Shown: one piece after another, positions 18,006 through 63,285 of the stretch
How positions within the stretch are numbered: position 1 is the first letter of the stretch
Layout of the letters: each line of letters begins with the position of its first letter
Source: a virus
DNA: 64,000 nt
Reading direction: 5' to 3' (one strand)
Virus record (IMG/VR): IMGVR_UViG_3300022868_000009
Coordinates: 248,001 to 312,000 of that record
Program-made: the position numbers and the translations under genes
Notes under the pieces: model-generated
What the model was told of the DNA's origin: nothing
The model's input: the letters and a program-made list of their open reading frames with translations, nothing else
The model's database searches: none

Positions 18006-18006
18006 A

Positions 18007-51878: not shown

Positions 51879-52271
51879 ATGAAAAATTTTTTAAATTTTA
51901 TAAATAATAATCACGAATATTCAAATAATGAAATGAATAAAATTATTAAATTCATTGGCAAATTATGTAAATATGAAAACAAAAAAGCAAACGCAATATT
52001 CAATTTTAACATATCAAAAAATATACTTAATGATACAGATTTTAATGCATCAGTAAGATCAAATAACATATATTCAAACGATATAAAACAAGTTACAAAA
52101 ATACTTGATAAAGTATGCGAAAAATTAAATATGTATCCAACAATAAATATTATGATTAATACATTTGGTAGATCAACAAATTATAATATTAACTGTACAT
52201 TTGAATTTACAGAAAAAAATAAATTAGACATTCTTGCAACTATAGAAGGAAATAAATTAGGACTATTATAA
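51879..52271 (+). CDS. Small protein with KLGLL tail (130 aa)
   Basis: It starts MKNFLNFINNNHEYSNN, which is only loosely like the packaging leader. It ends TIEGNKLGLL, the shared tail of the small-protein array. The body is helical then beta-rich (INIMINTFGRSTNYNINCTF). It is followed without a gap by the next array gene (stop TAA, then ATG). The upstream 36 bp shared with the divergent amidoligase-like gene contain TATATATTAA-type sequence on both strands. Confidence 0.6.
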   Translation: MKNFLNFINNNHEYSNNEMNKIIKFIGKLCKYENKKANAIFNFNISKNILNDTDFNASVRSNNIYSNDIKQVTKILDKVCEKLNMYPTINIMINTFGRSTNYNINCTFEFTEKNKLDILATIEGNKLGLL

Positions 52272-52616
52272 ATGAAACATCTTAAAAAATATAACGAAGA
52301 GAAAATAGAAAATAAATGGAAAAATACAATAGTAATTTATGAATCTTACTCGGATTCATGGGTATATGTAGATGGTTCATTGATATCAGAATGGTCTGTT
52401 ACCATATTTGATATATTATTAATATTATCAGAGGATAATGTTAATATATTGAAATATAAAATATCAATGTTAACAGATCATTTTCCTCAAAATATAATTG
52501 ATCATTTAAACGATCACCCAGAACAAGAATTTCCAATGTATGATTTAGATATATATGAACAAGAAATAATAAAAAGAAAAGCAGAAAAAGAAGGACAAAA
52601 AATGGGTCTGTTTTAA
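52272..52616 (+). CDS. Small protein with leader and KMGLF tail (114 aa)
   Basis: It starts MKHLKKYNEEKIENKW (packaging-like leader) and ends KEGQKMGLF (array tail). The body has an acidic beta part (YESYSDSWVYVDGSLISEWS) and a long charged helix at the end. It abuts the preceding gene and the decayed gene downstream, so the three formed one operon. The function is unknown. Confidence 0.6.
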   Translation: MKHLKKYNEEKIENKWKNTIVIYESYSDSWVYVDGSLISEWSVTIFDILLILSEDNVNILKYKISMLTDHFPQNIIDHLNDHPEQEFPMYDLDIYEQEIIKRKAEKEGQKMGLF

Positions 52617-52617
52617 A

Positions 52618-52941
52618 ATGAAACATATTTCAACATATAACGAATACTTACAAACACCCTTAAATTTATCAATACCAATATAGAAGATAATGATAAATTT
52701 ACAAATTACCTAGAACAATCAAACCTAATATCAAAAAATTCTTTATTTAGAACATATCATAAAGGATGTATATATCATACATTTTTAATATCAATTATAG
52801 ATAATCATTCTTAAAAATTAGTTGTTCAAACCCAGATAATGTATCTGGGTTTGAACAAAAAGGAGTAAATGAAATATTATTTGATCCAGATATAATTATA
52901 TAATTATAAGATTAGAAGCAAATAAAATGGGATTATTATGA
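52618..52941 (+). pseudogene. Decayed leader-and-tail protein gene
   Basis: The ATG opens a normal leader (MKHISTYNEYLQ) but meets a stop after 21 codons. A shifted frame then reads NIEDNDKFTNYLEQSNLISK for about 45 codons to another stop. After a long hairpin, a third frame ends LEANKMGLL with a TGA overlapping the ATG of the next gene, as in intact array operons. Leader, tail and overlap remain while the frame is broken at least twice. I read this as a recently decayed member of the family. Confidence 0.65.
52822..52858. repeat. Perfect 17-bp inverted repeat with 3-nt loop
   Basis: Arms TTGTTCAAACCCAGATA and TATCTGGGTTTGAACAA flank the loop ATG. It lies inside the decayed gene, is longer than the terminators in this window, and is not followed by a T run (AAAAGGAG follows). 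It could be an inserted palindrome, a small mobile or recombination element, or a transcript-stabilising hairpin. Confidence 0.8.
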
Positions 52942-53219
52942 AATATTTAAAGACATACAACGAATCAAAATATAAACCATCATATACTGCACGCCCAATG
53001 CCAGATAAATATCGGCTTAGATGTGAATATTTAATAGATAAATACGGTAAACTAAATACAAATAATAAAATTACACATTTATCAGAAGAATCAGAAATTT
53101 TACAAATAGATATAAATGATGATTATAGATTAGATATTTTTAAAACTACTGATAAATCGTTACTTAATATGAGAGAATTAGAAATGAAATTACAAGCAAA
53201 AGAATTAGGATTGTTATAG
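52938..53219 (+). CDS. Small protein with leader and ELGLL tail (93 aa)
   Basis: It starts MKYLKTYNESKYKPSY and ends LQAKELGLL. The body MPDKYRLRCEYLIDKYGKLN is similar to MPDKVFNRCLYLLDKYGEKN in the gene at 53664, so these two are paralogues despite opposite strands. The start overlaps the TGA of the decayed gene upstream. It carries both the packaging-like leader and the shared tail. The activity is unknown. Confidence 0.6.
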   Translation: MKYLKTYNESKYKPSYTARPMPDKYRLRCEYLIDKYGKLNTNNKITHLSEESEILQIDINDDYRLDIFKTTDKSLLNMRELEMKLQAKELGLL

Positions 53220-53281
53220 ATTTAATGAAAAGGGGAATTTATATTATAATATATTTAATGTATCATAATTTAGCACCTTTT

Positions 53282-53663
53282 TTATAATAATCCCATTTGA
53301 TTTGCCTGTTTAACATTATCGAGTGATATACCAACATTTTTTTCTAACCAATTTTCAATTGTAATATAATTGTATTTTTTATAATCAGGATCTTGTAAAT
53401 TATTTTGTAAATATACCATACTACCCCCAATTAAAATCATAATCTTTAACATTAAATATTTCATAATTTTCTTGAGAAATAGATATCAGAAAATAACTAG
53501 GTCTACCACCAGAATAACGAAAAATATAATCATAATCTATATCAATATTATAAAAATCATCATATAATGAAAATAATACAAAATTAATACATAATATATG
53601 TATACATAATATTAAAACAGATGATATAAAATTATTAGAAAAAATATGTTGTTTTAAGGTATT
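53282..53663 (-). pseudogene. Decayed leader-and-tail protein gene
   Basis: Directly after the stop of the gene at 53664, the minus strand reads IKYLKTTY where intact genes read MKYLKTY; the ATG has become ATA. A shifted frame then encodes about 75 codons (including YNIDIDYDYIFRYSGGRPSY) up to a stop. A further frame encodes the end, QDPDYKKYNYITIENWLEK and VKQANQMGLL. A 60-codon frame starting at 53464 exists, but its first 15 residues are out of frame with the ancestral protein. The gene has lost its start and has at least two frameshifts. Confidence 0.6.
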
Positions 53664-54050
53664 TTATAACAATCCCATTTTTTTCGCAGTTAATATTTTT
53701 TCTATTTCAGAACCTAATAAAAATGCATTTAATTTTATGAGTATAGAATTATCTAAATCATCATATTGTACATTTCTTTCATATTCACTATCTGATAAAT
53801 TATAATAATAAATAATACCGGTTGTATTAATATTACTTTGATAAATGTCAAATTTTAAATCATCTAATTTTATTTTTATTAAATTAGTAGATGTAGATCT
53901 ACCATAAAGATCAGATATTCTATTATTACCATCATTATTTTTTTCACCGTATTTATCTAGTAAATATAAACACCTATTAAATACTTTATCAGGCATTAAA
54001 TAACAATGATTTCTATTAATTTTTTCTAAATATGATTTCAAATATCTCAT
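53664..54050 (-). CDS. Small protein with leader and KMGLL tail (128 aa)
   Basis: It starts MRYLKSYLEKINRNHC and ends ILTAKKMGLL. It is a paralogue of the 93-residue protein at 52938 through the MPDKxxxRCxYLxDKYG segment, with an extra 35 residues before the tail. The stop TAA abuts the ruined start of the decayed gene downstream. A TATATATTAA-type motif lies just upstream of the start, also facing the divergent gene at 54092. Confidence 0.6.
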   Translation of the reverse strand: MRYLKSYLEKINRNHCYLMPDKVFNRCLYLLDKYGEKNNDGNNRISDLYGRSTSTNLIKIKLDDLKFDIYQSNINTTGIIYYYNLSDSEYERNVQYDDLDNSILIKLNAFLLGSEIEKILTAKKMGLL

Positions 54051-54091
54051 TAATCTTATATATTAAATTTAAATAAGAATATATAAATAAT

Positions 54092-54394
54092 ATGAAATAC
54101 CTTAAAACATATAATGAAAATAAATCATTTAATGATAAAGTTAATATGATTAAAAAAATAGTAGACACCGTTGGTAAAACTGATGATAGAGGTAAAATTT
54201 TAAATTTAAACTATAAATCAAAAGGTTCTAAAACCTATCTTTTAAAAATTCAAGATACATGCTGGATAAGTATTGAGATGATAGGTACAAGATTTTTAAG
54301 AAATTTAGATTCTAGAGTAATTGAATCTATATATAAAGAATTAAAAGAAAAATACCCAGAGTTTTTTATGGGAGATAAATTAGGTATTTTATAA
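54092..54394 (+). CDS. Small protein with leader and KLGIL tail (100 aa)
   Basis: It starts MKYLKTYNENKSFNDK and ends FMGDKLGIL. The body is helical, then a strand segment (TYLLKIQDTCWISIEMIG), then a charged helix. It is divergent from the gene at 54050 across about 40 bp. It is the last leader-bearing gene before the non-coding region and the promoter-led array. Confidence 0.6.
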   Translation: MKYLKTYNENKSFNDKVNMIKKIVDTVGKTDDRGKILNLNYKSKGSKTYLLKIQDTCWISIEMIGTRFLRNLDSRVIESIYKELKEKYPEFFMGDKLGIL

Positions 54395-54688
54395 AATAAA
54401 AGTCTTAAAAAATTTTCCAAAAAAATTTTCCAAAAAAATTTTAGAAACAAAATCCCAGTTTCTAAGTTATACTTTGTAACGGATACCCAAACGTAATTAT
54501 ATTATATATTATATTATATACACTTTTTAAATTTACACTTTCTGACAAATACTTAATATCTACTACAAAACAGTTACTAATTTAAATGAACACTACTTAC
54601 TCTATAAAAACAAACTTACTATTCTGTGATATAAAAAGTACTCTATTTACTATAAAATAGTTAATACCTTATATAGATAATACTTTAT

Positions 54689-54729
54689 TTTAAAATAAAC
54701 TTCTTTATATTATTTAAAATAAACTTCTT
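54689..54729. repeat. 17-bp direct repeat in the non-coding region
   Basis: TTTAAAATAAACTTCTT occurs at 54689-54705 and again at 54713-54729, 24 bp start to start. Short direct repeats with this spacing could be protein-binding iterons, but two copies are few. Confidence 0.75.
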
Positions 54730-54851
54730 CATGACCTCATATATTCACTATATCTATATATGTAGATAGGTGGCCCGTGAGCTATTTTTACTTATTATTA
54801 TTAATCTTAAATTAGGAGGATTTTTATAATCCTTATCTATTATTATTTTTT

Positions 54852-54879
54852 TGTCATGGATCATTGTGACATCTTTTTT
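54852..54879 (+). terminator. Weak hairpin followed by T run
   Basis: TGTCA (54852-54856) pairs with TGACA (54867-54871), followed by TC and seven T. The stem is short, so termination is only possible, but its place just before the first early promoter fits insulation of the array. Confidence 0.35.
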
Positions 54880-54905
54880 TATTTTTATATTAAGGTTGCT
54901 TTCCT

Positions 54906-54913
54906 TATCTTTG
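54906..54913 (+). promoter_or_regulatory. Early promoter (-7 TATCTTTG)
   Basis: GGTTGCTTTCCTTATCTTTG shows TTG about 15 bp before TATCTTTG. It is the first of a series of near-identical promoters on the plus strand. It lies inside the longest possible upstream reading frame, which argues for the start at 54937 instead. Confidence 0.7.
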
Positions 54914-54936
54914 TAATGAATAAAAATTATAATGAG

Positions 54937-55488
54937 ATGGAAAATTATTTTAAAATTGAACATGGAAGAAAGGTTGAGACATACACACCTAAAGATACAT
55001 ATGTATTAACATGGAATGAAAGACATGGTGATGCTGATCAAAGTATGCCTACATCTATGACTATACACAGTATGGATGAGTTATGGTTCATGTTATGGTT
55101 TAGTAAGTGGTTAGATAGATACAGACAGTATAGTGACTTAGATGAGTATAGTAAGGTACTTAATAAGTATAGTAAGGAGTTATTGGGTAGTAGTTGGTAT
55201 ATAACTGATTGGTGTAGTGATGTGTATGATCATGATTGTATATATTCTAGTTGTTATTGTGGTGTGGATGCCATGAAGTTATATTATTATGATGAGCATG
55301 GTGTTAAGTATGAAGAGGAGATTGATGGTAGTACATATATATCTTTAGTGAAGATGGGATATAAGTTAGATTGTTGGTTCATTGATAAGTATCCACATAT
55401 AGCTAATGAGTTACAGGGTATGATATGTGATGCTGCATTGGAAGATAAGAAGGATGTTATTGAGGCTAATAAAATGGGGTTGATATGA
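54937..55488 (+). CDS. Early protein with KMGLI tail (183 aa)
   Basis: The start is set at the ATG at 54937 (MENYFKIEHGRKVET), because the promoter lies downstream of the two earlier in-frame ATGs or leaves almost no leader. It has an acidic, Trp- and Tyr-rich body with a Cys-rich part (WCSDVYDHDCIYSSCYCGVD). The segment LYYYDEHGVKYEEEID is close to LYYIDEYGVKHETKI in the gene at 59584, so the two are distant relatives. It ends IEANKMGLI. It is coupled by ATGA to the next gene. The function is unknown. Confidence 0.65.
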   Translation: MENYFKIEHGRKVETYTPKDTYVLTWNERHGDADQSMPTSMTIHSMDELWFMLWFSKWLDRYRQYSDLDEYSKVLNKYSKELLGSSWYITDWCSDVYDHDCIYSSCYCGVDAMKLYYYDEHGVKYEEEIDGSTYISLVKMGYKLDCWFIDKYPHIANELQGMICDAALEDKKDVIEANKMGLI

Positions 55489-55817
55489 TAGATAAGAATA
55501 TAGTTATAGTATCGTATAGTAAAGAGGAGTTTAATTATGTATTGAATCTATTTAAATCTAGGGAGTTCAGTAGGTCTACGATTGATTCGTATCTACGTTA
55601 CGTTAATGATGATGGTCATTATAATGATTATGTATATCCTATTGCATTAATTGTGAGGTTTAAATTAATGTCAGCAACGTGGCAGTATAAAGATATGTGG
55701 GATCATATTAATGATTTATTAGATAGGGGTGAGGTTGATAGTGTTATTGATTGTAAAGATTTCAAAGAGATGGGTGGTGATAATTATATTGAAGGTATTA
55801 AATTAGGTTTACTTTAA
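55485..55817 (+). CDS. Early small protein with KLGLL tail (110 aa)
   Basis: It starts MIDKNIVIVSYSKEEFNYV and ends IEGIKLGLL. A strand followed by a helix (EEFNYVLNLFKSREF) occupies the place of the GYxW unit of the array family, although the GYxW itself is missing. ATGA overlap with the gene before. Immediately after it comes the next early promoter. It is probably a diverged member of the approximately 110-residue family. Confidence 0.6.
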   Translation: MIDKNIVIVSYSKEEFNYVLNLFKSREFSRSTIDSYLRYVNDDGHYNDYVYPIALIVRFKLMSATWQYKDMWDHINDLLDRGEVDSVIDCKDFKEMGGDNYIEGIKLGLL

Positions 55818-55835
55818 AGTTTAGAAGGTATTCCT

Positions 55836-55843
55836 TATCTTTG
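55836..55843 (+). promoter_or_regulatory. Early promoter (-7 TATCTTTG)
   Basis: TTTAGAAGGTATTCC then TATCTTTG-type core and TATT. It nearly repeats at 58069, 58819 and 63307. It precedes the three-gene unit 55890-56841. Confidence 0.75.
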
Positions 55844-55889
55844 TATTGAATATAATTTAAAGAATAGAAAATGATAAAAGGAATAAGTA

Positions 55890-56207
55890 ATGACATATAA
55901 GGTATTGATTAAGGTTCGTAATGAATCTGAATGGATATCATGTTGTGATATGTTGTATAGTCATGGTTATCGATGGCAAGACAATTGTATGGACTCAAAG
56001 AAGATACATGGATATAAGTTGATAAGTGAAGGTGATATATATTTAGTTATATATAATCATACTGACCCTCATCATCATGATGATCGTTTATTTTATAATA
56101 CTAATGTTAATGTTGATATTTATGGGCCGGATGTTATTATAATTAATTATGTTGAAGGTATGGATTTACATGAGATAATAGAAGTTAATAAATTGGGATT
56201 AATATGA
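55890..56207 (+). CDS. Array-family protein, GYRW type (105 aa)
   Basis: It starts MTYKVLIKVRNESEWISCC and has MLYSHGYRWQD at about residues 24-34. It ends IEVNKLGLI. The family plan is strand, helix, G-Y-x-W, two or three strands with an acidic loop, and the tail. The DNA over about 65 bp (ATTAAGGTTCG onward) is almost identical to the next gene, showing recent tandem duplication. A partial Shine-Dalgarno site AAAAGGA lies 8 nt before the ATG. ATGA overlap with the next gene. Confidence 0.65.
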   Translation: MTYKVLIKVRNESEWISCCDMLYSHGYRWQDNCMDSKKIHGYKLISEGDIYLVIYNHTDPHHHDDRLFYNTNVNVDIYGPDVIIINYVEGMDLHEIIEVNKLGLI

Positions 56208-56539
56208 TAGTATTTAGTAAAGATATAAAGAAAATAAATATTAAGGTTCGTAATGAATCTGAATGGGTATCATGTTGCAATATGTTGTATAGTCATGGTT
56301 ATCATTGGAATGTTGAGTCTGATTTTATGGAGATATATTCTGAATGTTTAGAAACTGCTAAGGAATATATTAAGACTTATGCAATAAATGATGGTATATA
56401 TTTAGTTGTTTATAATGATAATAGTGGACGGTTATATTATAATTATAAATATAAGACTGATGGTATAATAAATCTTGATTGGTATGATGGTATGGATTTA
56501 CATGAGATAAATGAAGCTAATAAATTGGGGTTAATATGA
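56204..56539 (+). CDS. Array-family protein, GYHW type (111 aa)
   Basis: It starts MIVFSKDIKKINIKVRNES and has WVSCCNMLYSHGYHW, matching the preceding gene almost residue for residue over 20 positions. It then diverges in the middle before DGMDLHEINEANKLGLI, again close to its neighbour. The pattern is conserved ends with a variable centre. ATGA overlap with the genes on both sides. Confidence 0.65.
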   Translation: MIVFSKDIKKINIKVRNESEWVSCCNMLYSHGYHWNVESDFMEIYSECLETAKEYIKTYAINDGIYLVVYNDNSGRLYYNYKYKTDGIINLDWYDGMDLHEINEANKLGLI

Positions 56540-56841
56540 AAGAGAAGATATACATAATATTAAATAATATAGATGATTGGATTAATTGTTGTAATCAATT
56601 AGACAATGAGGGATATTTTTGGGCAAGAAGTAGTGACTCATATAAAGATAAATATCATAAATGTAAAACTTTCGGTAATCCTGAAAATTATATAGTAATA
56701 GGTCATAATGAGTATGATGATAATCGTTTATATTATGGTAATATATATAATGATAAGAAGTTTGATGGTATTATTTTATATTGGGATGCTGATGTAGATT
56801 TAGAAAGTTATTTTGCAGGTTTAAAAATGGGATTATTATAA
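56536..56841 (+). CDS. Array-family protein (101 aa)
   Basis: It starts MKEKIYIILNNIDDWINCC and contains QLDNEGYFWARSSD, the family GYxW unit. NRLYYGNIYNDKK corresponds to RLYYNYKYKTD next door, and the protein ends FAGLKMGLL. It is the third gene of the 55836 promoter unit. The function is unknown. Confidence 0.65.
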   Translation: MKEKIYIILNNIDDWINCCNQLDNEGYFWARSSDSYKDKYHKCKTFGNPENYIVIGHNEYDDNRLYYGNIYNDKKFDGIILYWDADVDLESYFAGLKMGLL

Positions 56842-56916
56842 TAATATTTTCATGTTTGACCAGGGAGAATTTAGGTTGGAGGAAAGGGGATATTTTTATT
56901 TGGTGAAGGTTTGTTG

Positions 56917-56924
56917 TGTATTTG
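56917..56924 (+). promoter_or_regulatory. Probable early promoter (TGTATTTG)
   Basis: TTTGTTGTGTATTTGTG resembles the -7 element with TG for TA, about 28 nt before the ATG at 56952. The 110 bp before it are G-rich on the plus strand and hold no gene. Confidence 0.5.
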
Positions 56925-56951
56925 TGTATAAATTAAAATGTAAAAAAGATT

Positions 56952-57332
56952 ATGATAAAATGGATTAATATAAGGCTGGAAGGTTATGGTAAAGGTAAAG
57001 GTAAAGGTAAAGGTAAGAAGAAACTGAATAAGATGGTTATGCGTAAATTGTTACATCAAATTGATTGTAAGGTTGGTTTTCGTATTAAGGATGGTGGATG
57101 GAAACCAGTTTTAAATAGTTTAAAAGAATATAAGCATTATAAATATATATGGATTGCTATATGTCCTTTTGGTAAAGATATGGCTGCGGATTATCATGAA
57201 AATAAAGAAGAATGGGAGAGTTATAAAGACGGTATTGAGGCGGATGAAGCTGAGGTATGGTTGAGTTGGGAAGAGTTTATGGATTTAGATATTCAGATGA
57301 TTGTTAATGGTTCTAAAATGAATTTATTATGA
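56952..57332 (+). CDS. Early protein with GKGK repeat and KMNLL tail (126 aa)
   Basis: It starts MIKWINIRLEGYGKGKGKGK; the GK run comes from a 6-bp DNA repeat (GGTAAA) at 56987-57016. The body has a strand-rich basic part and an acidic Trp/Glu-rich end (ENKEEWESYKDGIEADEAE), finishing VNGSKMNLL. It differs from the GYxW family, yet the tail is kept. ATGA overlap with the next gene. The function is unknown. Confidence 0.6.
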   Translation: MIKWINIRLEGYGKGKGKGKGKKKLNKMVMRKLLHQIDCKVGFRIKDGGWKPVLNSLKEYKHYKYIWIAICPFGKDMAADYHENKEEWESYKDGIEADEAEVWLSWEEFMDLDIQMIVNGSKMNLL

Positions 57333-57721
57333 AAGATATAAAGTGGATAAATATAATGTTAGACTGGGATAAGTTTAAGTGGGAACAATTCCATGATGTT
57401 GTTGATTATTATAAAGAGTTATTTCCTAAATTAGATTGGACAACTGTTCAAACTGAGATACAGATACATGATAAAATTCGAAATGAATCTGTTTTTGATA
57501 TTTTAGGTTTATCTATATGTTTGGAACATGATAGTAATGATTTTAATATTAATAATTGTGAAAATACTATAAATAATTGGCATCCTGTTATATTTAAGTA
57601 TGGTATTGGTGATGATTTATATGACAAGCAAACTGGTATTGAAATAATTGTTAAATATAGTAAAGATTTCCGTGAAGAGATTGAGTTTTATTTAGAGGGT
57701 TCTAAAATGGGTTTATTATGA
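57329..57721 (+). CDS. Early protein with KMGLL tail (130 aa)
   Basis: It starts MKDIKWINIMLDWDKFKWEQ, similar in its first residues to the gene before (IKWINI), which suggests common ancestry. The body is acidic alpha/beta with two Cys, and it ends YLEGSKMGLL. It lacks the GYxW unit. ATGA overlap on both sides. The function is unknown. Confidence 0.6.
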   Translation: MKDIKWINIMLDWDKFKWEQFHDVVDYYKELFPKLDWTTVQTEIQIHDKIRNESVFDILGLSICLEHDSNDFNINNCENTINNWHPVIFKYGIGDDLYDKQTGIEIIVKYSKDFREEIEFYLEGSKMGLL

Positions 57722-58050
57722 AAAAAACAATAATATTTTTACATAACAATAAGGATTTGGGCAACTTGTTCATGTATTTACATGTTATTGGATGCAAATG
57801 GTCTAGTGGTAGACCTATTATAATAGATAGTGAAATACAAAGATTTAATTTATCTTGTTCTAGATCTAAATCTGTTGCAATTATCGTTGATGATGGTAGT
57901 CTTACTTATGTATCAAATAAGAAAGATATTGTTTATAGTTATATATCTGGTGATAAATTTAAATATTATGATCATTATGAGTATGTAGATTTTGATAAGG
58001 AGTTTGATATTGATGTAACTATTAATGGTAATAAGATGGGATTACTTTAA
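57718..58050 (+). CDS. Array-family protein (110 aa)
   Basis: It starts MKKTIIFLHNNKDLGNLFMY and contains LHVIGCKWSSG in the GYxW position, with Cys replacing Tyr. The middle is beta-rich with a Ser/Arg/Asp motif (SCSRSKSVAIIVDDGSLTYV). It ends YDHYEYVDFDKEFDIDVTINGNKMGLL-like, that is, a KMGLL tail. It is closely related to the genes at 58103 and 58435. Its TAA stop is followed by a new promoter, so the tail is kept even where there is no overlap with a next start. Confidence 0.65.
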   Translation: MKKTIIFLHNNKDLGNLFMYLHVIGCKWSSGRPIIIDSEIQRFNLSCSRSKSVAIIVDDGSLTYVSNKKDIVYSYISGDKFKYYDHYEYVDFDKEFDIDVTINGNKMGLL

Positions 58051-58068
58051 AGTTTAGAAGGTATTCCG

Positions 58069-58076
58069 TGTCTTTG
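58069..58076 (+). promoter_or_regulatory. Early promoter (TGTCTTTG variant)
   Basis: The surrounding AGTTTAGAAGGTATTCCG matches the 58819 and 63307 promoters, with TG for TA at the start of the -7 element. It drives 58103-58800. Confidence 0.65.
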
Positions 58077-58086
58077 TATTATAATT

Positions 58087-58094
58087 AAAGGAGG
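58087..58094 (+). promoter_or_regulatory. Strong Shine-Dalgarno site
   Basis: AAAGGAGG lies 8 nt before the ATG at 58103. This is a near-perfect Shine-Dalgarno site, unusual for Bacteroidota-type messages, where such sites are mostly absent or masked. Confidence 0.75.
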
Positions 58095-58102
58095 AAACAA
58101 AA

Positions 58103-58438
58103 ATGAAAATGATAATATATGCACATAATGACGAAGATATTTATAAGTTATCAACTTATTTACATTATATTGGAATTAAATGGCAAACTGAAATTTTTAT
58201 TATGAATGATGGTGAAATGACAATAGATTGTAATAGAGCTGAATCTAAATCTATTGCATTTTGTGTTAAAAATAATCGTGTGTCATATATGAATGATGGT
58301 GGTTCTTTTGGTGGTGATGTTTATAATTTTTTCAAAAGGCAACCATATGAATGTTATGACCATTATGAGTATATTGAATTTGATAAGGAGTTTGGTGTTG
58401 ATATGGTTTTAGAATCAATAAAGATGGGTTTATTATGA
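58103..58438 (+). CDS. Array-family protein (111 aa)
   Basis: It starts MKMIIYAHNDEDIYKLSTYL and contains LHYIGIKWQTE in the GYxW place. The middle includes IDCNRAESKSIAFCVKNNRV and MNDGGSFGGDVYNFF. The end CYDHYEYIEFDKEF then LESIKMGLL is nearly the same as in the neighbours. Strong Shine-Dalgarno site. ATGA overlap with 58435. It belongs to a close trio with 57718 and 58435. Confidence 0.65.
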   Translation: MKMIIYAHNDEDIYKLSTYLHYIGIKWQTEIFIMNDGEMTIDCNRAESKSIAFCVKNNRVSYMNDGGSFGGDVYNFFKRQPYECYDHYEYIEFDKEFGVDMVLESIKMGLL

Positions 58439-58800
58439 AAAAAACAATAATATATGTACATAGTGATGAGGATATGATTAATTTATTAAGTTATTTACAT
58501 TTTGTTGGAGTTACATGGCATGGCTCTGCTATTATAAAAGATGATGATAGTTCCGATAATTTTTTTAATGCCGATGCCAGATATATAGATATTAGTTGTA
58601 AAAAAACGGGAACTGTTGGATTTTGTATTGATCAAGATGATTATATTACATATATGGATGATGGTACTTTTAAAGGCGAGAATGTTTATGAATATTTCGG
58701 TAGAGATTTTATGGAGTATGATCATTATGAGTATGATGAATATGTTGAAAAGTTTGATATTGAACCACTCATAAATGGAATAAAGATGGGTTTACTTTAA
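58435..58800 (+). CDS. Array-family protein (121 aa)
   Basis: It starts MKKTIIYVHSDEDMINLLSY and contains LHFVGVTWHGS in the GYxW place. The middle has an insertion of acidic residues (KDDDSSDNFFNADARYIDIS), then YMDDGTFKGENVYEYF, matching the previous gene. It ends INGIKMGLL with a TAA stop, followed by a promoter. It is a diverged duplicate of 58103. Confidence 0.65.
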   Translation: MKKTIIYVHSDEDMINLLSYLHFVGVTWHGSAIIKDDDSSDNFFNADARYIDISCKKTGTVGFCIDQDDYITYMDDGTFKGENVYEYFGRDFMEYDHYEYDEYVEKFDIEPLINGIKMGLL

Positions 58801-58818
58801 AGTTTAGAAGGTATTCCG

Positions 58819-58826
58819 TATCTTTG
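58819..58826 (+). promoter_or_regulatory. Early promoter (-7 TATCTTTG)
   Basis: AGTTTAGAAGGTATTCCG directly precedes TATCTTTG, with TATTATAATTAAA after it. Over 35 bp it is almost identical to the 58069 promoter, as if copied with the gene units. Confidence 0.75.
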
Positions 58827-58839
58827 TATTATAATTAAA

Positions 58840-58845
58840 AAGGAG
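58840..58845 (+). promoter_or_regulatory. Shine-Dalgarno site
   Basis: AAGGAG lies 7 nt before the ATG at 58853, in a leader otherwise made of A and T. Confidence 0.65.
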
Positions 58846-58852
58846 AAGAAAA

Positions 58853-59107
58853 ATGAAAAAGAAACAAAATAAAAAAGAAGAGAGTAAATATCAATACAGA
58901 AGTGATACTGCTGTTAGGGTTGAAGAAACTGAATATAGTGTAAATGAGTATGACGAATGGGATCGCATAGTATTTTATTTATGGAAGAAGAGTGGTTATT
59001 GGTCTGTGAATGTTTTTGCTCCTGTAACTGATGGTAAAAGGGTTTCATTAGAACCTTTACAAGTAATTCATAAGTATTGGACATCTTATAATAAATTATC
59101 AATATGA
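58853..59107 (+). CDS. Unknown early protein (84 aa)
   Basis: It starts MKKKQNKKEESKYQYRSD, a basic tail followed by an acidic Tyr/Trp-rich part (EYDEWDRIVFYLWKKSGYWS). It ends SYNKLSI, without the shared tail. The end overlaps the next gene (ATGA). No motif was recognised. Confidence 0.55.
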   Translation: MKKKQNKKEESKYQYRSDTAVRVEETEYSVNEYDEWDRIVFYLWKKSGYWSVNVFAPVTDGKRVSLEPLQVIHKYWTSYNKLSI

Positions 59108-59370
59108 AAAGATTAAATATATTTGTAAGAAGTGGATTACAGCAAACGTTGTTTCTACATTATTTATATACTAATGGTTATAGTTATAAAGATAGAAAGG
59201 ATCTTTATTGGAAATTTACTAATGGTTCAGGTGCTATTGTGGTTAATGTAATTGATAAAATAATATTAGGTGGTAACACAGGTTGGTTTGCAACACAATC
59301 ACATATGAATGTAAAAGAATTTGTTGATAAGGCGTGGGAATTTGAAAGTATGAGGATTGGTGTATTATGA
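59104..59370 (+). CDS. Array-family protein with diverged tail (88 aa)
   Basis: It starts MKRLNIFVRSGLQQTLFLHY and contains YLYTNGYSYKDRKDLYW, a variant of the GYxW unit with Tyr for Trp. It ends FESMRIGVL, a diverged form of the tail (R for K, V for L). It is shorter than its relatives because the middle strands are reduced. ATGA overlap with the gene before. Confidence 0.6.
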   Translation: MKRLNIFVRSGLQQTLFLHYLYTNGYSYKDRKDLYWKFTNGSGAIVVNVIDKIILGGNTGWFATQSHMNVKEFVDKAWEFESMRIGVL

Positions 59371-59400
59371 TTAAGGAATATCATATATGTATTATAAATA

Positions 59401-59408
59401 AAAAGGAG
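59401..59408 (+). promoter_or_regulatory. Shine-Dalgarno site fixing the start at 59415
   Basis: AAAAGGAG lies 6 nt before the ATG at 59415. The longer in-frame start at 59367 would have no such site and would add a polar prefix unlike related zinc proteins. Confidence 0.65.
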
Positions 59409-59414
59409 AAAAAA

Positions 59415-59606
59415 ATGCTAACAATATTAACAATATTATTAATATGGAATCAATTTAGTGGTTGGTTTAGAAAGATGTTTTGTAAAATTGGTTTACACAC
59501 ATGGATTAAAGTCTATTCACATAATGAAAAAGGTTGGCATATAAAGGAAAAGAAATGTAGAATATGTAATAAGGAGGTAAAAAATGATAAAAATAATAGA
59601 AAATAA
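59415..59606 (+). CDS. Small zinc-knuckle protein, DUF1660-like (63 aa)
   Basis: It starts MLTILTILLIWNQFSGWF, a hydrophobic helix that may be a membrane segment. It is followed by CKIGLHTWIKV and, after about 20 residues, CRICNKE. C-x3-G-x-H-x-W with a later CxxC is the pattern of DUF1660-type phage proteins that bind zinc. It overlaps the next gene by 23 bp. The function of this family is not known to me. Confidence 0.6.
   Translation: MLTILTILLIWNQFSGWFRKMFCKIGLHTWIKVYSHNEKGWHIKEKKCRICNKEVKNDKNNRK
59571..59577 (+). promoter_or_regulatory. Strong Shine-Dalgarno site
   Basis: AAGGAGG lies 6 nt before the ATG at 59584, inside the end of the preceding gene. Confidence 0.7.
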
Positions 59607-60093
59607 AACACAAACTAAAAGAATTGAACCTTATTATAGGTTAAAATTTAGTTACATGATTGGTGATGCTGATGGTGACACTACAGAGAAGATTGATATT
59701 CCTCTTAACAATCCATATGTCGAAAGAGTTGTTGATGTTTTAAATAATTGTGATACACCTAAAGGTCATTGGGGTATGATATTAGACTCTGAACATTTCA
59801 CTAAGTTATTGAATCAGGGTAAAATGACACAGAGTGATTATAATTTTTGTAAAGTGGTTGTATTTGGTGATGACATTGATGAACACATGGAAGAGTTTTT
59901 CAGCAAGGAAAGAATTGAGGCTGACAAATTAAAATTATTGGAGATAACTGGCGATGAAAAATCATACGCTTATGAATTTGAAGAGGCTTGTATTACTTCG
60001 ATTGGACATAGTTTCGCAGTTTTTGAAGGTATTGATTTATATTATATTGATGAATATGGAGTAAAACATGAGACCAAAATAGTTGATGATTAA
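59584..60093 (+). CDS. Early acidic protein (169 aa)
   Basis: It starts MIKIIENKTQTKRIEPYYRL. The acidic body has GDADGDTTEKIDIPLNNPYV and, near the end, FEGIDLYYIDEYGVKHETKI, the latter shared with the protein at 54937. It lacks the KxGLL tail, ending KIVDD. The reading frame starts inside the preceding gene with its own Shine-Dalgarno site. The function is unknown. Confidence 0.6.
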   Translation: MIKIIENKTQTKRIEPYYRLKFSYMIGDADGDTTEKIDIPLNNPYVERVVDVLNNCDTPKGHWGMILDSEHFTKLLNQGKMTQSDYNFCKVVVFGDDIDEHMEEFFSKERIEADKLKLLEITGDEKSYAYEFEEACITSIGHSFAVFEGIDLYYIDEYGVKHETKIVDD

Positions 60094-60130
60094 AACATTA
60101 AAATGGTAAGGAATTTCAGAAGGAGTTCCT

Positions 60131-60138
60131 TATCTTTG
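60131..60138 (+). promoter_or_regulatory. Early promoter (-7 TATCTTTG)
   Basis: TTTCAGAAGGAGTTCC precedes TATCTTTG, a variant of the TTTAGAAGGTATTCC type. It starts the unit 60168-61161. Confidence 0.7.
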
Positions 60139-60167
60139 TATTAATATTAATTTAAAGAAGAAATAAA

Positions 60168-60395
60168 ATGATAAAATATAAAATAACAGATGAAAAAATT
60201 GAAGTAGGCGACATTGTTGCTTATGGAATAACATGGAGAGAGAAACGTGTAAGAAAGCACGGTTATGTACTTGGTGTTTGGGAAGAATATTGGGATGAGG
60301 ATTCACAGAAGTTTAGAAATAAGGTTGAATGTGTTGATAAAGATAATCATATAATTCGTAGTGAAGAATGGTTAAAAAAGGTGGTATTGATATGA
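60168..60395 (+). CDS. Unknown small beta protein (75 aa)
   Basis: It starts MIKYKITDEKIEVGDIVAYG. VGDIVAYGITWREKRVRKHGYVLGVWEEYW followed by strand-rich sequence looks like a small SH3-like barrel of the kind common in phage accessory proteins. It ends EWLKKVVLI without the shared tail. ATGA overlap with the next gene at 60392. Confidence 0.55.
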   Translation: MIKYKITDEKIEVGDIVAYGITWREKRVRKHGYVLGVWEEYWDEDSQKFRNKVECVDKDNHIIRSEEWLKKVVLI

Positions 60396-60697
60396 TAAAA
60401 CGATATTATAAAATAGGAATAGATATTCCTGATAATAAATTTGTTAAGTTGATATCAGATCATTTATATTCTTTGGGTTATAAATGGTGTAGTGATTTTA
60501 GAGACGAATCTTTTTATGATAAAGTAACGAATGAATGTATAAGAAGTAATGTGCGTGGTATTGGTGTTGAATGTAATGGTCGCATGAGTTACAATGTTGT
60601 TAAAAATCAAACTGAAAAGTGGTATTCTCTTGAAGAATATGTAATAAAATATGATTTAGTGATTGAATATGAAGGATTAAAAATGGGTTTATTATGA
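60392..60697 (+). CDS. Array-family protein, GYKW type (101 aa)
   Basis: The start is placed at the ATG at 60392 (MIKRYYKIGIDIPDNKF), overlapping the upstream TGA. The earlier in-frame GTG or ATG at 60368 would extend 24 bp into the previous gene. It contains HLYSLGYKWCSD, the family unit. The middle is acidic and Cys-containing, and the protein ends EYEGLKMGLL. ATGA overlap with the small membrane protein gene. Confidence 0.65.
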   Translation: MIKRYYKIGIDIPDNKFVKLISDHLYSLGYKWCSDFRDESFYDKVTNECIRSNVRGIGVECNGRMSYNVVKNQTEKWYSLEEYVIKYDLVIEYEGLKMGLL

Positions 60698-60801
60698 GAA
60701 AGAGAAAACGAATCAAGGAAAATATTGACTATTTGTTATTTGGAATGGATTGTGCATTGATAGTATTATTTGTATTATTCATAGTATTAATTATAATTTA
60801 G
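60694..60801 (+). CDS. Small single-pass membrane protein (35 aa)
   Basis: ATG at 60694 overlaps the stop of the gene before, and TAG at 60799 lies in the Shine-Dalgarno site of the gene after, as in tight operons. It has a basic start (MRKRKRIKENIDYLLFGMD) then one hydrophobic helix (LIVLFVLFIVLIII) to the end. Basic side inside and hydrophobic C-terminus predict a tail-in membrane peptide. The function is unknown. Confidence 0.55.
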   Translation: MRKRKRIKENIDYLLFGMDCALIVLFVLFIVLIII

Positions 60802-60805
60802 GAGG
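60800..60805 (+). promoter_or_regulatory. Strong Shine-Dalgarno site
   Basis: AGGAGG lies 5 nt before the ATG at 60811, overlapping the stop codon of the small membrane protein gene. Confidence 0.7.
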
Positions 60806-60810
60806 AAAAA

Positions 60811-61161
60811 ATGAGAAAAATATATTTAGCAACAAATTATTTCACAGCGTTAACCCCGCTTGATGATGATAACAATTTATTAAAATTAGAAAGAGGTAAA
60901 GATCCTGTTATTATTTGTACCCTTGAGAAATATCTGGAAGATGTTGATAACACAATAATCACAGGTAACATATTAAGATTAGAAATAATTGCAAAAACAG
61001 ATGATGGTTGGATAATTGAACAAGAATTTATAACACCGGGAATGTTAGAGAGTTTGAATTGTAGAAAGATAAGTCTTGACTCACAATTTATTGAAACTTT
61101 AAATCGAAGCCAGAAAGTGGCTTTAGAGTTAAAGAATATAAATGAAAAATTGTCAAGGTAA
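60811..61161 (+). CDS. Unknown early protein (116 aa)
   Basis: It starts MRKIYLATNYFTALTPLDDD. It has a strand-rich first half, then acidic residues, then DDGWIIEQEFITPGMLESLN and a helical end (VALELKNINEKLSR). It lacks the shared tail. It is preceded by AGGAGG and is the last gene before two tandem promoters. No family was recognised. Confidence 0.55.
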   Translation: MRKIYLATNYFTALTPLDDDNNLLKLERGKDPVIICTLEKYLEDVDNTIITGNILRLEIIAKTDDGWIIEQEFITPGMLESLNCRKISLDSQFIETLNRSQKVALELKNINEKLSR

Positions 61162-61186
61162 ATTTTTTTATTAAGTAGAATCACCG

Positions 61187-61194
61187 TATATTTG
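61187..61194 (+). promoter_or_regulatory. Early-type promoter (-7 TATATTTG)
   Basis: TAAGTAGAATCACCG precedes TATATTTG. It is the first of two promoters before the HU gene. The 70 bp to the next promoter hold no gene. Confidence 0.6.
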
Positions 61195-61266
61195 TATTAT
61201 ACAATTGAGAAGATAGAAAAAGAAGAGAAATAAACAGAATGATTTTTTAATTCAGAATAAAGTTCT

Positions 61267-61274
61267 TATCTTTG
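61267..61274 (+). promoter_or_regulatory. Early promoter (-7 TATCTTTG) for HU gene
   Basis: TTCAGAATAAAGTTCT precedes TATCTTTG, about 55 nt before the HU ATG at 61330. Tandem with the promoter at 61187, it suggests strong expression. Confidence 0.65.
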
Positions 61275-61329
61275 TATAGACAAAAACAAGTAAACATAAT
61301 ATTAATTAATTTAAAAAACGAAAAACAAA

Positions 61330-61644
61330 ATGGCAAACAAAAAAGATTTAACAAACGCAATTGCAATAGCTACAGGCAAAACAAAAAAAGATAGCAAAGA
61401 ATTAGTAAACGTCATAATGGCATCTATTAAATCTGAATTAAGTAACGGTGAAGGTTCTATCGTAAAATTAGTAAACTTTGGAACATTTAAAGTAGTTAAT
61501 CGAAAAGCAAGAAAAGGAAGAAATCCAAGGACTGGTGAATCAATTGATATCCCTGCAAAGAATGTAGTTAGATTCAAAGCTGGTAAAGGTCTTAAAGAAG
61601 CGGTTGATTATACTGCTGAAGAAAGAGAAGAATTAGGAATATAA
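61330..61644 (+). CDS. HU-family DNA-binding protein
   Basis: A 104-residue histone-like protein. The N-terminal helices MANKKDLTNAIAIATGKTKK and DSKELVNVIMASI are followed by VKLVNFGTFKVVNRKARKG, the typical saddle with GTF. The DNA-clasping arm contains RKGRNPRTGESIDIPA with the intercalating Pro, then FKAGKGLKEAV. It bends or compacts DNA. It has its own tandem promoters and a strong terminator, and its A-rich leader has no Shine-Dalgarno site. It could serve phage DNA organisation or replication. Confidence 0.92.
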   Translation: MANKKDLTNAIAIATGKTKKDSKELVNVIMASIKSELSNGEGSIVKLVNFGTFKVVNRKARKGRNPRTGESIDIPAKNVVRFKAGKGLKEAVDYTAEEREELGI

Positions 61645-61667
61645 GAAATAAAACTCCTGAAATATCG

Positions 61668-61694
61668 AAGCCACCTGGAGAGGTGGCTTTTTTT
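61668..61694 (+). terminator. Hairpin terminator of HU gene
   Basis: A 9-bp perfect stem AAGCCACCT/AGGTGGCTT with loop GGAG is followed directly by a T run. Confidence 0.9.
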
Positions 61695-61710
61695 ATTTGA
61701 AAAAATTCCT

Positions 61711-61718
61711 TATATTTG
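61711..61718 (+). promoter_or_regulatory. Early-type promoter (-7 TATATTTG), near-leaderless
   Basis: TTGAAAAAATTCCT precedes TATATTTG. The ATG at 61722 begins 4 nt after the element, at about the expected transcription start. Confidence 0.65.
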
Positions 61719-61721
61719 TAT

Positions 61722-62042
61722 ATGAATAACGAAAAATATATAAGGTTTAAGGTAAAAACTCTATCAGATAGTAAGAGTATTCAAGAATTTTTATTTTCTT
61801 TAGGATATATGTGGTGTTCAGAAAATAGGAAAGAATATTATTATATGAATTTTGAAACGTCTGATATTTTATTATGTCTTGAGAGTGACTTTAATCCTAA
61901 TATAGATCATATTTTTCATGGTGATGTAGAGATATTAAATTATGATAAAAGATGGATGGATAAGATAATAAAATCTTATGATATGAGTAATTATAAAGAT
62001 TTTATTCAATATAAAAATGCAAAACAACTGGGATTAATTTAA
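61722..62042 (+). CDS. Array-family protein, GYMW type (106 aa)
   Basis: ATG at 61722 (MNNEKYIRFKVKTLSDSK) is preferred over an upstream TTG inside the promoter. It contains SIQEFLFSLGYMWCSENRKE, the family unit, and ends YKNAKQLGLI. It is closest to the next gene (IRFKVKTLSDSKSIQEFLFS against ILFKVDTSRESKEIQEFLFS). With its own promoter and almost no leader, it would be among the first proteins made. The function is unknown. Confidence 0.65.
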   Translation: MNNEKYIRFKVKTLSDSKSIQEFLFSLGYMWCSENRKEYYYMNFETSDILLCLESDFNPNIDHIFHGDVEILNYDKRWMDKIIKSYDMSNYKDFIQYKNAKQLGLI

Positions 62043-62060
62043 TATTAAGAACAAACTCCG

Positions 62061-62068
62061 TATCTTTA
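62061..62068 (+). promoter_or_regulatory. Early promoter (-7 TATCTTTA), near-leaderless
   Basis: AAGAACAAACTCCG precedes TATCTTTA, and ATG follows 4 nt later at 62073. The sequence recurs at 62397. Confidence 0.6.
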
Positions 62069-62072
62069 CACT

Positions 62073-62378
62073 ATGAAAAAACATGAAAAATTTATATTAT
62101 TTAAGGTTGATACTTCAAGGGAAAGTAAGGAAATTCAAGAATTTTTGTTTTCTTTAGGTTATTCTTGGCGTGGAGATAATAATATGGAATATTTCTCTGT
62201 TGAAATTGGGGCTTATATTTTATTATGTGTTGATAGTAATAATATTAAGAGCAAAAATTGTATTTTTTATGGAAATGATAAAATGCAATATGATCAAGAA
62301 CTTATAAAATCTTATAACATGAATAATTATAAAGATTCTTTATGTTTTATAGAATCATTTAAATTGGGATTATTTTAA
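62073..62378 (+). CDS. Array-family protein, GYSW type (101 aa)
   Basis: It starts MKKHEKFILFKVDTSRESKE and contains EFLFSLGYSWRGDNNMEYFS, the family unit. The middle has YILLCVDSNNIKSKNCIFYG, matching ILLCLESDFNPNIDHIFHG in the previous gene. It ends FIESFKLGLF. It is a tandem duplicate of 61722, with its own promoter and a short leader. Confidence 0.65.
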   Translation: MKKHEKFILFKVDTSRESKEIQEFLFSLGYSWRGDNNMEYFSVEIGAYILLCVDSNNIKSKNCIFYGNDKMQYDQELIKSYNMNNYKDSLCFIESFKLGLF

Positions 62379-62396
62379 AATTGAGAACAAACTCCG

Positions 62397-62404
62397 TATC
62401 TTTA
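62397..62404 (+). promoter_or_regulatory. Early promoter (-7 TATCTTTA) without a following gene
   Basis: TTGAGAACAAACTCCG precedes TATCTTTA, nearly identical to the promoter at 62061. The next ATG-led gene has its own promoter at 62506, so this one appears to serve a short non-coding transcript. Confidence 0.6.
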
Positions 62405-62408
62405 CATA

Positions 62409-62476
62409 GTTAAAGGGCGGAGAATTTTTATAGGTTCTGGGAGAGTAGACTCCAACTTGCGATATATTTTTTTTAA
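62409..62476 (+). ncRNA. Candidate small RNA
   Basis: It runs from the expected start of the 62397 promoter to a run of eight or more T (62467-62474). The roughly 65 nt contain the most GC-rich stretch nearby (AAAGGGCGGAGAA, GGTTCTGGGAGAGTAGACTCC). GGAG...CTCC can form a small stem and AGAA...TTCT another. No open frame is present. The T run is not directly preceded by a strong stem, so termination is uncertain. It is not a tRNA by fold or length. It could also be the remains of a gene. Confidence 0.35.
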
Positions 62477-62505
62477 CACAATTTTTATTTCTTAGAAGTA
62501 ATCCG

Positions 62506-62513
62506 TATCTTTG
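62506..62513 (+). promoter_or_regulatory. Early promoter (-7 TATCTTTG), near-leaderless
   Basis: TTCTTAGAAGTAATCCG precedes TATCTTTG. The ATG at 62518 is 4 nt later. Confidence 0.7.
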
Positions 62514-62517
62514 TTAT

Positions 62518-62949
62518 ATGAAAATGAAAGTATTATATATTAAAGCTGAAAACATGAAAGATGGTGATTTTGACATTATGTTAAAATTTGTTAATAATAA
62601 TAAAAATTTAGATTATTATTTAACAGGTATAAATATGGGGGGTATTATGAGAACATTTATATGTATAGCCGTAAATGATGATAATTATAATGAGGTTAAA
62701 GAAAAATTATTCTCTAAATATAATACACCATCACATATTACTGATTTTCAAAATTATGAAGATTATAAATATCCCTATTTATCAATTGAAATATCAATGG
62801 AAAATGAACATGCAGATCATTTAACTATTCATCCTTTGAATGATGATGATGTAGATGTTAAAAATTTTGAAATAATTTATAGTAATATTGATGACATATT
62901 TGATGATATTGATATGCATATAACTACAAAAAAACTTGGTTTATCTTAA
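62518..62949 (+). CDS. Early protein with KLGLS tail (143 aa)
   Basis: It starts MKMKVLYIKAENMKDGDFDI and ends ITTKKLGLS, a diverged tail. The body has an alpha/beta start, a basic middle, and an acidic end (HPLNDDDVDVKNFEII). The GYxW unit is absent. A nearby in-frame MGGIMRTFICIAVNDDNYNE suggests two alpha/beta repeats. Promoter and ATG almost touch, so the message is probably near-leaderless. Confidence 0.6.
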   Translation: MKMKVLYIKAENMKDGDFDIMLKFVNNNKNLDYYLTGINMGGIMRTFICIAVNDDNYNEVKEKLFSKYNTPSHITDFQNYEDYKYPYLSIEISMENEHADHLTIHPLNDDDVDVKNFEIIYSNIDDIFDDIDMHITTKKLGLS

Positions 62950-62964
62950 CTAAAAAAAATAATT

Positions 62965-63285
62965 ATGAGAAAATTTAATTGTATTAAAATAGAAAATGAA
63001 GAACATTTAAATGAATGTTATAAAAAGATAATTGATCTTAAAACACATTATCCATATAACACTTTTGTTGATAGATTTATTATGATAAAGGGTTATTGTA
63101 TTGGTTTTGAAATAGAAGAAATAGAAGAAGGAAGATTAATTTTAACATTTTTAACTGATAATGATCTTCAACGATTTGATGAATCAAATGAATTAGCTTT
63201 TAATTGTAATTATTTTAATGATATTGATTCTTTTGTTGAATATCATAAGATTTATTTTGATTGTAGATCATTAGGGGTTTTATAA
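62965..63285 (+). CDS. Early protein with SLGVL tail (106 aa)
   Basis: It starts MRKFNCIKIENEEHLNECYK, a strand-helix start like the array family. The middle is acidic (IEEIEEGRLILTFLTDND), with YNTFVDRFIMIKGYCIGFEI before it. It ends YFDCRSLGVL, a diverged tail. It lies 15 bp after the preceding gene under the same promoter. The function is unknown. Confidence 0.6.
   Translation: MRKFNCIKIENEEHLNECYKKIIDLKTHYPYNTFVDRFIMIKGYCIGFEIEEIEEGRLILTFLTDNDLQRFDESNELAFNCNYFNDIDSFVEYHKIYFDCRSLGVL

Follow-up and report, generated by a model that had tools for sequence, protein, structure and literature searches.

Many small proteins of a huge phage end in the same short peptide. We analysed a 64,000-nucleotide stretch of viral DNA (the window), bases 248001–312000 of the IMG/VR record IMGVR_UViG_3300022868_000009 (344,634 bases; here the source record, G000), with window positions counted from 1. 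A C-terminal tail of about 14 residues, [DE][LI]xxx[ILFY][EN][SAG]xK[ML]GL[LIM]-COOH (the KMGLL tail), ends at least 106 open reading frames (ORFs) of this phage, 63 in the source record and 43 in its continuation. As a protein-level C-terminal tag the tail is firm, and it very probably serves in sorting or docking. We propose, with a probability of roughly 0.4, that huge Bacteroidetes-type phages run a sorting system of their own, in which one peptide 'address' per lineage, borne by dozens to about 100 unrelated proteins, is recognized by one co-evolving receptor and directs its bearers to the head or to a cell compartment. Its dialects would include KMGLL-COOH, RDxKLxxLG or RKxxIxxLL, and DPYGEExW.

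ORFs were called greedily as the longest ATG/GTG frames of at least 40 amino acids (aa), with no gene finder, and were counted as tailed when they ended in [LMIVF][GN][LIMVF][LIMVF]. The record IMGVR_UViG_3300023257_000007 (348 kb; G001) carries the tail sites of the source record from about 104 kb onward, at a constant offset, and then extends past its end, so neither record covers the whole phage; the source record and this continuation together are called the window phage. A third record, G003, duplicates part of G001, and IMGVR_UViG_3300022890_000011 (167 kb; G002) adds 19 tailed ORFs, giving 125 in all (63, 43 and 19). Stretches outside the window were picked for tail-pattern matches, and the tailed fractions are therefore not genome averages.

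The tail is far more frequent at protein ends than composition predicts. Across the source record, a codon pattern for K-[LMIF]-G-phi-phi-stop (TAA/TGA) occurs 37 times forward and 15 times in reverse, as against 1 and 0 for the reversed pattern; in G002 it occurs 18 times, with 2 in the control. Tailed ORFs number 63 of 273 in the source record, where the internal 4-mer frequency of the same proteins predicts 0.84, and the same comparison gives 43 of 113 ORFs added by G001 (0.32 expected) and 19 of 77 in G002 (0.24 expected). Ends of the form K[ML]G[LI][LIMF] number 45, 21 and 14 in the three records, with 0.011, 0.015 and 0 expected, and K[ML]G[LI][LIF] is found at 41 C-termini but only twice internally in 50,468 residues. 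A chance origin is thus rejected for the window phage, with 106 ends where internal frequencies predict about one. These counts leave out at least ten ORFs of the source record, G001 and G002 that carry the N-terminal tag described below and end in ...NANKMGLY or near it.

The tail ends 22 of the 83 called ORFs of the window, 21 of them among the 28 ORFs between 51879 and 63285. The shared tail reported there by the initial annotation is therefore real, although its figure of some 25 proteins was slightly high unless variants such as TTKKLGLS are included. It had also placed two tails elsewhere: EAIKLGLL at 13517 ends a 111-aa ORF, whereas EALKMNLL at 44084 is present but belongs to a 19-aa mini-ORF, no ordinary gene. 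This mini-ORF lies just upstream of an ORF that by eye resembles RNase H. The features are as follows (N-tag, an MKYLKTYNE-like start; GYxW, a superfamily; both discussed below).

13517–13852, minus strand: 111-aa ORF, N-tag MKYLKTYNE, GYxW superfamily, tail IEAIKLGLL
44084–44143, plus strand: 19-aa mini-ORF MKIGLKRKHIIEALKMNLL, end IIEALKMNLL, maybe chance or a remnant
51879–52271, plus strand: 130-aa ORF, N-tag-like start MKNFLNFINNN, tail IEGNKLGLL
52272–52616, plus strand: 114-aa ORF, N-tag MKHLKKYNE, tail KEGQKMGLF
52938–53219, plus strand: 93-aa ORF, N-tag MKYLKTYNE, tail LQAKELGLL
53282–53464, minus strand: 60-aa ORF, tail KQANQMGLL
53664–54050, minus strand: 128-aa ORF, N-tag MRYLKSYLE, tail LTAKKMGLL
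54092–54394, plus strand: 100-aa ORF, N-tag MKYLKTYNE, tail FMGDKLGIL
54856–55488, plus strand: 210-aa ORF, tail IEANKMGLI, weak match to phrog_8562 (unknown function, E 5e-4)
55485–55817, plus strand: 110-aa ORF, tail IEGIKLGLL
55890–56207, plus strand: 105-aa ORF, GYxW superfamily, tail IEVNKLGLI
56204–56539, plus strand: 111-aa ORF, GYxW superfamily, tail NEANKLGLI
56536–56841, plus strand: 101-aa ORF, GYxW superfamily, tail FAGLKMGLL
56952–57332, plus strand: 126-aa ORF, tail VNGSKMNLL
57329–57721, plus strand: 130-aa ORF, tail LEGSKMGLL
57718–58050, plus strand: 110-aa ORF, GYxW superfamily, tail INGNKMGLL
58103–58438, plus strand: 111-aa ORF, GYxW superfamily, tail LESIKMGLL
58435–58800, plus strand: 121-aa ORF, GYxW superfamily, tail INGIKMGLL
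59104–59370, plus strand: 88-aa ORF, GYxW superfamily, variant tail FESMRIGVL
60368–60697, plus strand: 109-aa ORF, GYxW superfamily, tail YEGLKMGLL; modelled from the inner start at 60392 (101 aa)
61716–62042, plus strand: 108-aa ORF (106 aa from the ATG at 61722), GYxW superfamily, tail KNAKQLGLI
62073–62378, plus strand: 101-aa ORF, GYxW superfamily, tail IESFKLGLF
62518–62949, plus strand: 143-aa ORF, degenerate tail ITTKKLGLS, left out of the tail counts
62965–63285, plus strand: 106-aa ORF, variant tail FDCRSLGVL

The form first described, E-x-x-K-[ML]-G-L-[LI], is real, but conservation reaches beyond these eight residues. Among 63 tails, D or E stands at position -14 in 34, L or I at -13 in 38, I, L, F or Y at -9 in 49, E, N or Q at -8 in 51 and S, A or G at -7 in 58; K then follows at -5 in 49, M or L at -4 in 60, G at -3 in 59, L at -2 in 54 and L at -1 in 47 (L, I or M in 60). 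The commonest endings are GLL, GLI and GLM. The small residues (-7 and -3) and the hydrophobic ones (-13, -9, -4, -2 and -1) are spaced as would suit a helix. An AlphaFold2 model of the 101-aa protein at 60392–60697 has a helix at residues 90–97, up to the conserved Lys, beyond which MGLL is non-helical; its mean predicted local distance difference test score (pLDDT) is 63, with the best-scored parts, residues 81–90 and 91–100, at 89 each. A Foldseek search with this model against the PDB and BFVD gave no match at E ≤ 0.001, and a model of a second tailed family (mean pLDDT 48) was too poor to use. Two roles were considered and rejected: Glu at -8 occurs in only 36 of the 63 tails, so the tail is no general site for a Glu-cutting protease, and its charges, judged by eye, are balanced, which speaks against a membrane-targeting helix.

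The tail sits on many different bodies. After removal of the first 10 and last 16 residues (at least 25 aa remaining) and grouping by phmmer at 1e-3, the 104 tailed bodies of the window phage fall into 82 groups, 71 of them singletons; with G002 included, 123 bodies give 101 groups and 90 singletons. Profile iteration unites 22 ORFs in the largest superfamily, GYxW, which accounts for 17 of the 125 tailed proteins; five of its members have no tail (one terminates in ESSKMDLI), and an N-tag precedes two of the tailed members. The tail thus appears to reach far beyond this superfamily, and the tailed proteins do not form one family over their full length at the level that sequence comparison can see. 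The claim that the tail is a module on several unrelated folds is supported to that extent; within the window it needs qualifying, since GYxW takes in 11 of the 22 tailed ORFs, and the interval 51879–63285 consequently looks less diverse than the genome. All 125 tailed proteins together matched five families each in PHROGs and Pfam at 1e-4, the Pfam families including ankyrin (two members), leucine-rich repeat models and the peptidase_M16 middle domain, and the PHROGs families carrying no description. Searches with ten tailed proteins of the window against both collections returned weak matches and no trusted named function, and those with nine from other stretches against Pfam returned weak matches below the cut-off. 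For the largest tailed window protein, the phage collection yielded nothing at 0.01, and among viral contigs the sole match was the other record of the same phage.

Codon usage shows that selection on the tail acts mainly at the protein level, together with a weaker constraint on the Gly codon. The codons for E at -8, K at -5 and L at -4 match body usage (P = 0.45, 0.64 and 0.83; n = 125 tails), and the last 18 nt differ in 100 of the 125 tails. Gly at -3 is encoded by GGA in 76 of 115 tails (P = 3e-18), as compared with 28% of body Gly (966/3,392), 38% of body Gly before Leu (115/301) and 41% over the final 12 codons of ORFs without a tail (62/151); departures at -7, L -2 and L -1 are weaker (P = 0.001–0.02). 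Because the GGA bias is stronger where a start lies within 6 nt downstream (42/55 versus 34/60 elsewhere; Fisher P = 0.03), we read it as an added ribosome-binding role. Such a start does follow tailed ORFs more often than untailed ones (25/63 versus 46/210 in the source record, 25/43 versus 31/70 in G001 and 10/19 versus 15/58 in G002), as a tail that was a by-product of a gene-end signal for the next gene would require. Yet 38 of the 63 tailed ORFs of the source record are not followed by such a start and carry the tail all the same, bearing out the initial remark on genes with no overlapping neighbour, while its 46 untailed ORFs with a close start do without one; the alternation of M/L, L/I/M and S/A/G and the conservation at -13 and -9 are protein-like. 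The statement that the tail is not just a DNA signal therefore stands, with the amendment that a nucleic-acid component exists at Gly -3.

A second tag marks the other end of many proteins, which start with MKYLKTYNE or similar (the N-tag). An ATG-start MKxLKxx[YF]-like pattern occurs 27 times in the source record versus once in the control, and 53, 40, 21 and 14 times in four other huge phages with 0–1 in controls; it is scarce in LR756501 (3 versus 1) and absent from MaF61. A strict N-tag, MKxLxx[YF], begins 41 of the 125 tailed but only 30 of 338 untailed ORFs, and ten of those 30 end in a Tyr variant of the tail. Counting the Tyr variants as tails and limiting the comparison to ORFs of up to 300 aa, the N-tag is found on 37 of 114 tailed versus 15 of 229 other ORFs in the window phage (odds ratio 6.9, P = 1e-9) and on 14 of 24 versus 3 of 48 in G002 (odds ratio 21, P = 3e-6), P values that are too small because paralogues were counted singly. 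Repeat-rich N-tagged paralogues ending in NANKMGLY lie at 268440–269479, 276687–277405 and 281819–282538 in G001 and at 17058–19322, 85963–86502 and 160520–161059 in G002, the latter with 58–73% identity to those of G001. The N-tag, which is N-terminal and stands on many unrelated proteins, resembles the capsid targeting sequence of phage T4. A candidate prohead-protease domain (PF03420) is found in an 816-aa frame of the source record, with an E value of 5.7e-6 that is below the curated cut-off; it was not found in G001 or G002. In passages of PMC3012670, the T-even internal proteins are described as highly diverse, with only the capsid targeting sequence conserved.

Taken as a sorting or docking tag, the tail may act as a short amphipathic helix with M/L-G-L-L and a free carboxylate behind it, presented to one phage-encoded reader. 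Borne by many small unlike proteins, it would allow one structure to collect them all, most likely the prohead or its core, and the tailed cargo would be loaded into the virion and then injected, like the internal proteins of T4. For this destination, which like the reader we infer, our preference is tentative.

The protein at 40152–42761 of the window is 43% identical to a protein of the 735-kb phage LR756501 and 33–36% identical to proteins of LR756502, LR745206 and LR756504 (642, 635 and 636 kb). A survey of huge phages describes complete genomes of 634, 636, 642 and 735 kb, assigns its largest ones to the 'Mahaphage' clade and predicts Bacteroidetes hosts (PMC7162821). The KMGLL tail itself appears to be specific to its lineage. 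In scans with tail patterns among viral contigs, several matches occurred only on G001, G002 and G003, and seven further contigs had one each, two of these loci with an ORF of at least 40 aa ending on the match (...RKKLGLI and ...EASKLGFM). Genome contigs gave 37 stretches with one match each, which we read as background. The tail was not found in six distant huge phages (1–3 pattern matches per record versus 1–2 in controls; 0 of 1,243 sampled ORFs), and a looser pattern lacking K was at about control level in ten relatives.

Some of these phages end small proteins in other peptides. A motif finder was applied to the C-terminal 14 residues of ORFs whose bodies are non-homologous and to random internal windows, with six controls each; the controls had 15 starting points and the real data up to 40, so that the margins are somewhat flattered. 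It recovered the tail in the window phage (log-likelihood 847 versus 147) and in G002 (249 versus 129), and found other C-terminal motifs in LR756502 (288 versus 146), LR745206 (346 versus 147) and LR756504 (434 versus 150). Excesses in LR756501 (221 versus 147) and LR756500 (181 versus 143, standard deviation 8; a weak motif) are small and may reflect composition, and MaF61 showed no C-terminal motif (116 versus 115). The motif R-[DNE]-x-K-[LI]-x-x-[LI]-[LG] lies near the end of 16 of 173 ORFs in LR756502 and 25 of 186 in LR745206, with 3 and 0 internal matches, and R-K-x-[IK]-I-x-x-[LI]-[LI] near the end of 21 of 283 in LR756504, with none. These R-type tails (RDxKLxxLG or RKxxIxxLL) end many small proteins of the three phages (loci L099–L118 and L136–L139). 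The KMGLL tail and the RDxKLxxLG type can be aligned in six columns, [ILFY]-[E or R]-[small or D/N]-x-K-[LM or LI], a likeness that may be due to descent or to chance. That lineages differ in their peptide is expected if tag and reader co-evolve in each.

LR756501 carries 104 copies of a peptide first noticed by eye, DPY[GA]EExW, for which the control gave 0 and eight other searched records gave none; additional contigs in IMG/VR bear several copies each (66 stretches). Of 58 copies in 49 sampled proteins, many of which were fetched around matches, 17 lie within 6 residues of the C-terminus and 12 no more than 40 residues from the N-terminus, the majority of the latter behind starts that by eye are T4-like (for example, MIKKFRIFEN). 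The peptide is not purely C-terminal and is therefore parallel to the KMGLL tail, not the same feature; it may be something other than a docking tag. One example lies at L104:11317–11850 (minus strand), and a 1,233-aa protein combines several copies with deaminase and tRNA-nucleotidyltransferase domains. A head maturation protease of this phage (phrog_207, E = 3.4e-19; PF03420, E = 1.9e-5, below cut-off) ends in DPYGEENWSE, linking a peptide of this kind with a head protein in one of the relatives.

Several observations weigh against a lineage-specific address that leads to the head. No tailed protein is known from virions and no reader has been named; 77 of the 114 tailed ORFs (up to 300 aa) of the window phage have no N-tag; the PF03420 ORF of the source record does not end in the tail; and 29 of the 58 DPYGEExW copies are internal. 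R-type tail and N-tag avoid each other in LR756502 (1/23) and LR745206 (0/36; P = 7e-4 and 0.008), two phages of which part of the stretches had been picked for N-tag matches, and are unlinked in LR756504 (0/14 versus 5/111, P = 1). Such avoidance fits two alternative signals to one place and equally signals to two places.

The main rival, which we consider doubtful but the best of the alternatives, is a hub within the infected cell (replication site, membrane patch, RNA polymerase, ribosome or early compartment) at which the tag would collect takeover proteins. Many tailed genes lie, by eye, in runs of small and often overlapping ORFs away from structural genes, in the manner of early takeover genes, and both the near separation of C-tailed from N-tagged proteins in two relatives and the N-tag-less majority in the window phage suit such a hub. 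Tail and N-tag nevertheless co-occur in the records with the KMGLL tail, the head protease of LR756501 is tagged, and no hub candidate was found. A degron by which one ATP-dependent protease clears short-lived proteins would likewise give many unrelated proteins a short, hydrophobic and free C-terminus, with the logic of the ssrA tag; the common ends GLL, GLI and GLM are unlike the (A)LAA of ssrA tags, however, and E, K and Gly are conserved within the tail, making this improbable. Still less probable is a single superfamily with the tail as its last structural helix. The reach of GYxW and the fairly confident helix model favour it, and kinship deeper than sequence comparison detects is conceivable, but the number of body groups, the tail-less GYxW members, the N-tag in front of others and the ankyrin and leucine-rich repeat matches oppose it. 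A sliding-clamp-binding peptide is about as improbable: K[ML]GL[LF] is similar to QLxLF-like motifs, and QMGLL and QLGLL ends (2 each of 125) resemble QLGLF, yet the Gln needed there is replaced by K at -5 in 95 of 125 tails; a PF02916 search gave no match, though neither did control genomes, and the polymerase matches are partial, with the C-terminus outside them. A by-product of ribosome binding, the weakest of these explanations, is largely refuted by the counts given above.

Window genes named by PHROGs include two DNA helicases, a topoisomerase II, a baseplate wedge subunit, a thymidylate synthase and an HU-like DNA-binding protein; the G+C content is 25%. A 124-aa ORF with a VEPK repeat lies at 49149–49523 (minus strand). 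G002, whose tail sites differ in position from those of the window phage, was searched for the topoisomerase and the 869-aa and 1,116-aa window proteins, none of which was found on it; the two have in common mainly the repeat-rich paralogue family (58–73% identity), and G002 could belong to a relative or to the window phage itself. Polymerase B matches near 130535 in G000 and 21790 in G002 cover different parts of the profile (129–203 and 21–145 of 453) and sit in short frames, as if the gene were split, which would also fit G002 within the same phage. ORFs of about 445–580 aa share a C-terminus, YRIY[ND]SG[NK][LI]K (G000 1788–3440, 8010–9752 and 130817–132418; loci L096 and L097), and are possibly mobile homing-type genes.

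Known systems offer partial precedents. T4 loads diverse internal proteins through one common targeting peptide, and encapsulin cargo-loading peptides and the peroxisomal PTS1 are short C-terminal peptides that bring diverse cargo to one receptor; the C-terminal address is common to the latter two and the KMGLL tail, whereas sequences and systems differ. With the T4 capsid targeting sequence the tail shares a single short terminal peptide on highly diverse proteins, but the T4 signal is found on few proteins, the tail on more than 100, and the Glu of T4-type cleavage positions stands at -8 in only a part of the tails. The T4 sequence is also N-terminal, with 10–20 residues, according to passages of PMC5694885. 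The same passages describe about 50 different head proteins and a bolus of ejection proteins in SPN3US-type giant phages, with cutting at N- and/or C-termini, and infer that the protease is targeted by a C-terminal region; they report long propeptides on few proteins and mention no short common C-terminal tag. The initial annotation knew of no description of such a tail, and literature searches on shared C-terminal motifs, sorting signals and the motif letters, covering titles and abstract openings with subscription papers outside their scope, found none either. The motif letters matched only in a yeast-peptide paper, and a term search for C-terminal motif wording in PMC7824862 and PMC7162821 was negative.

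A short terminal peptide on diverse phage proteins has its precedent in T4; we know of no other system with the C-terminal position, the scale or the dialects seen here. Huge-phage genes are mostly short and lack a known function, and a common tag makes more than 100 of them a single testable set for which one partner is expected, a handle on how huge phages sort, load or place their arsenal. The different peptides of relatives would allow the reader to be sought by co-variation. Should the tail load the head, it would parallel the T4 targeting sequence at the opposite protein end and on a much larger scale; should it work in the cell, it would be a sorting signal within the infected bacterium.

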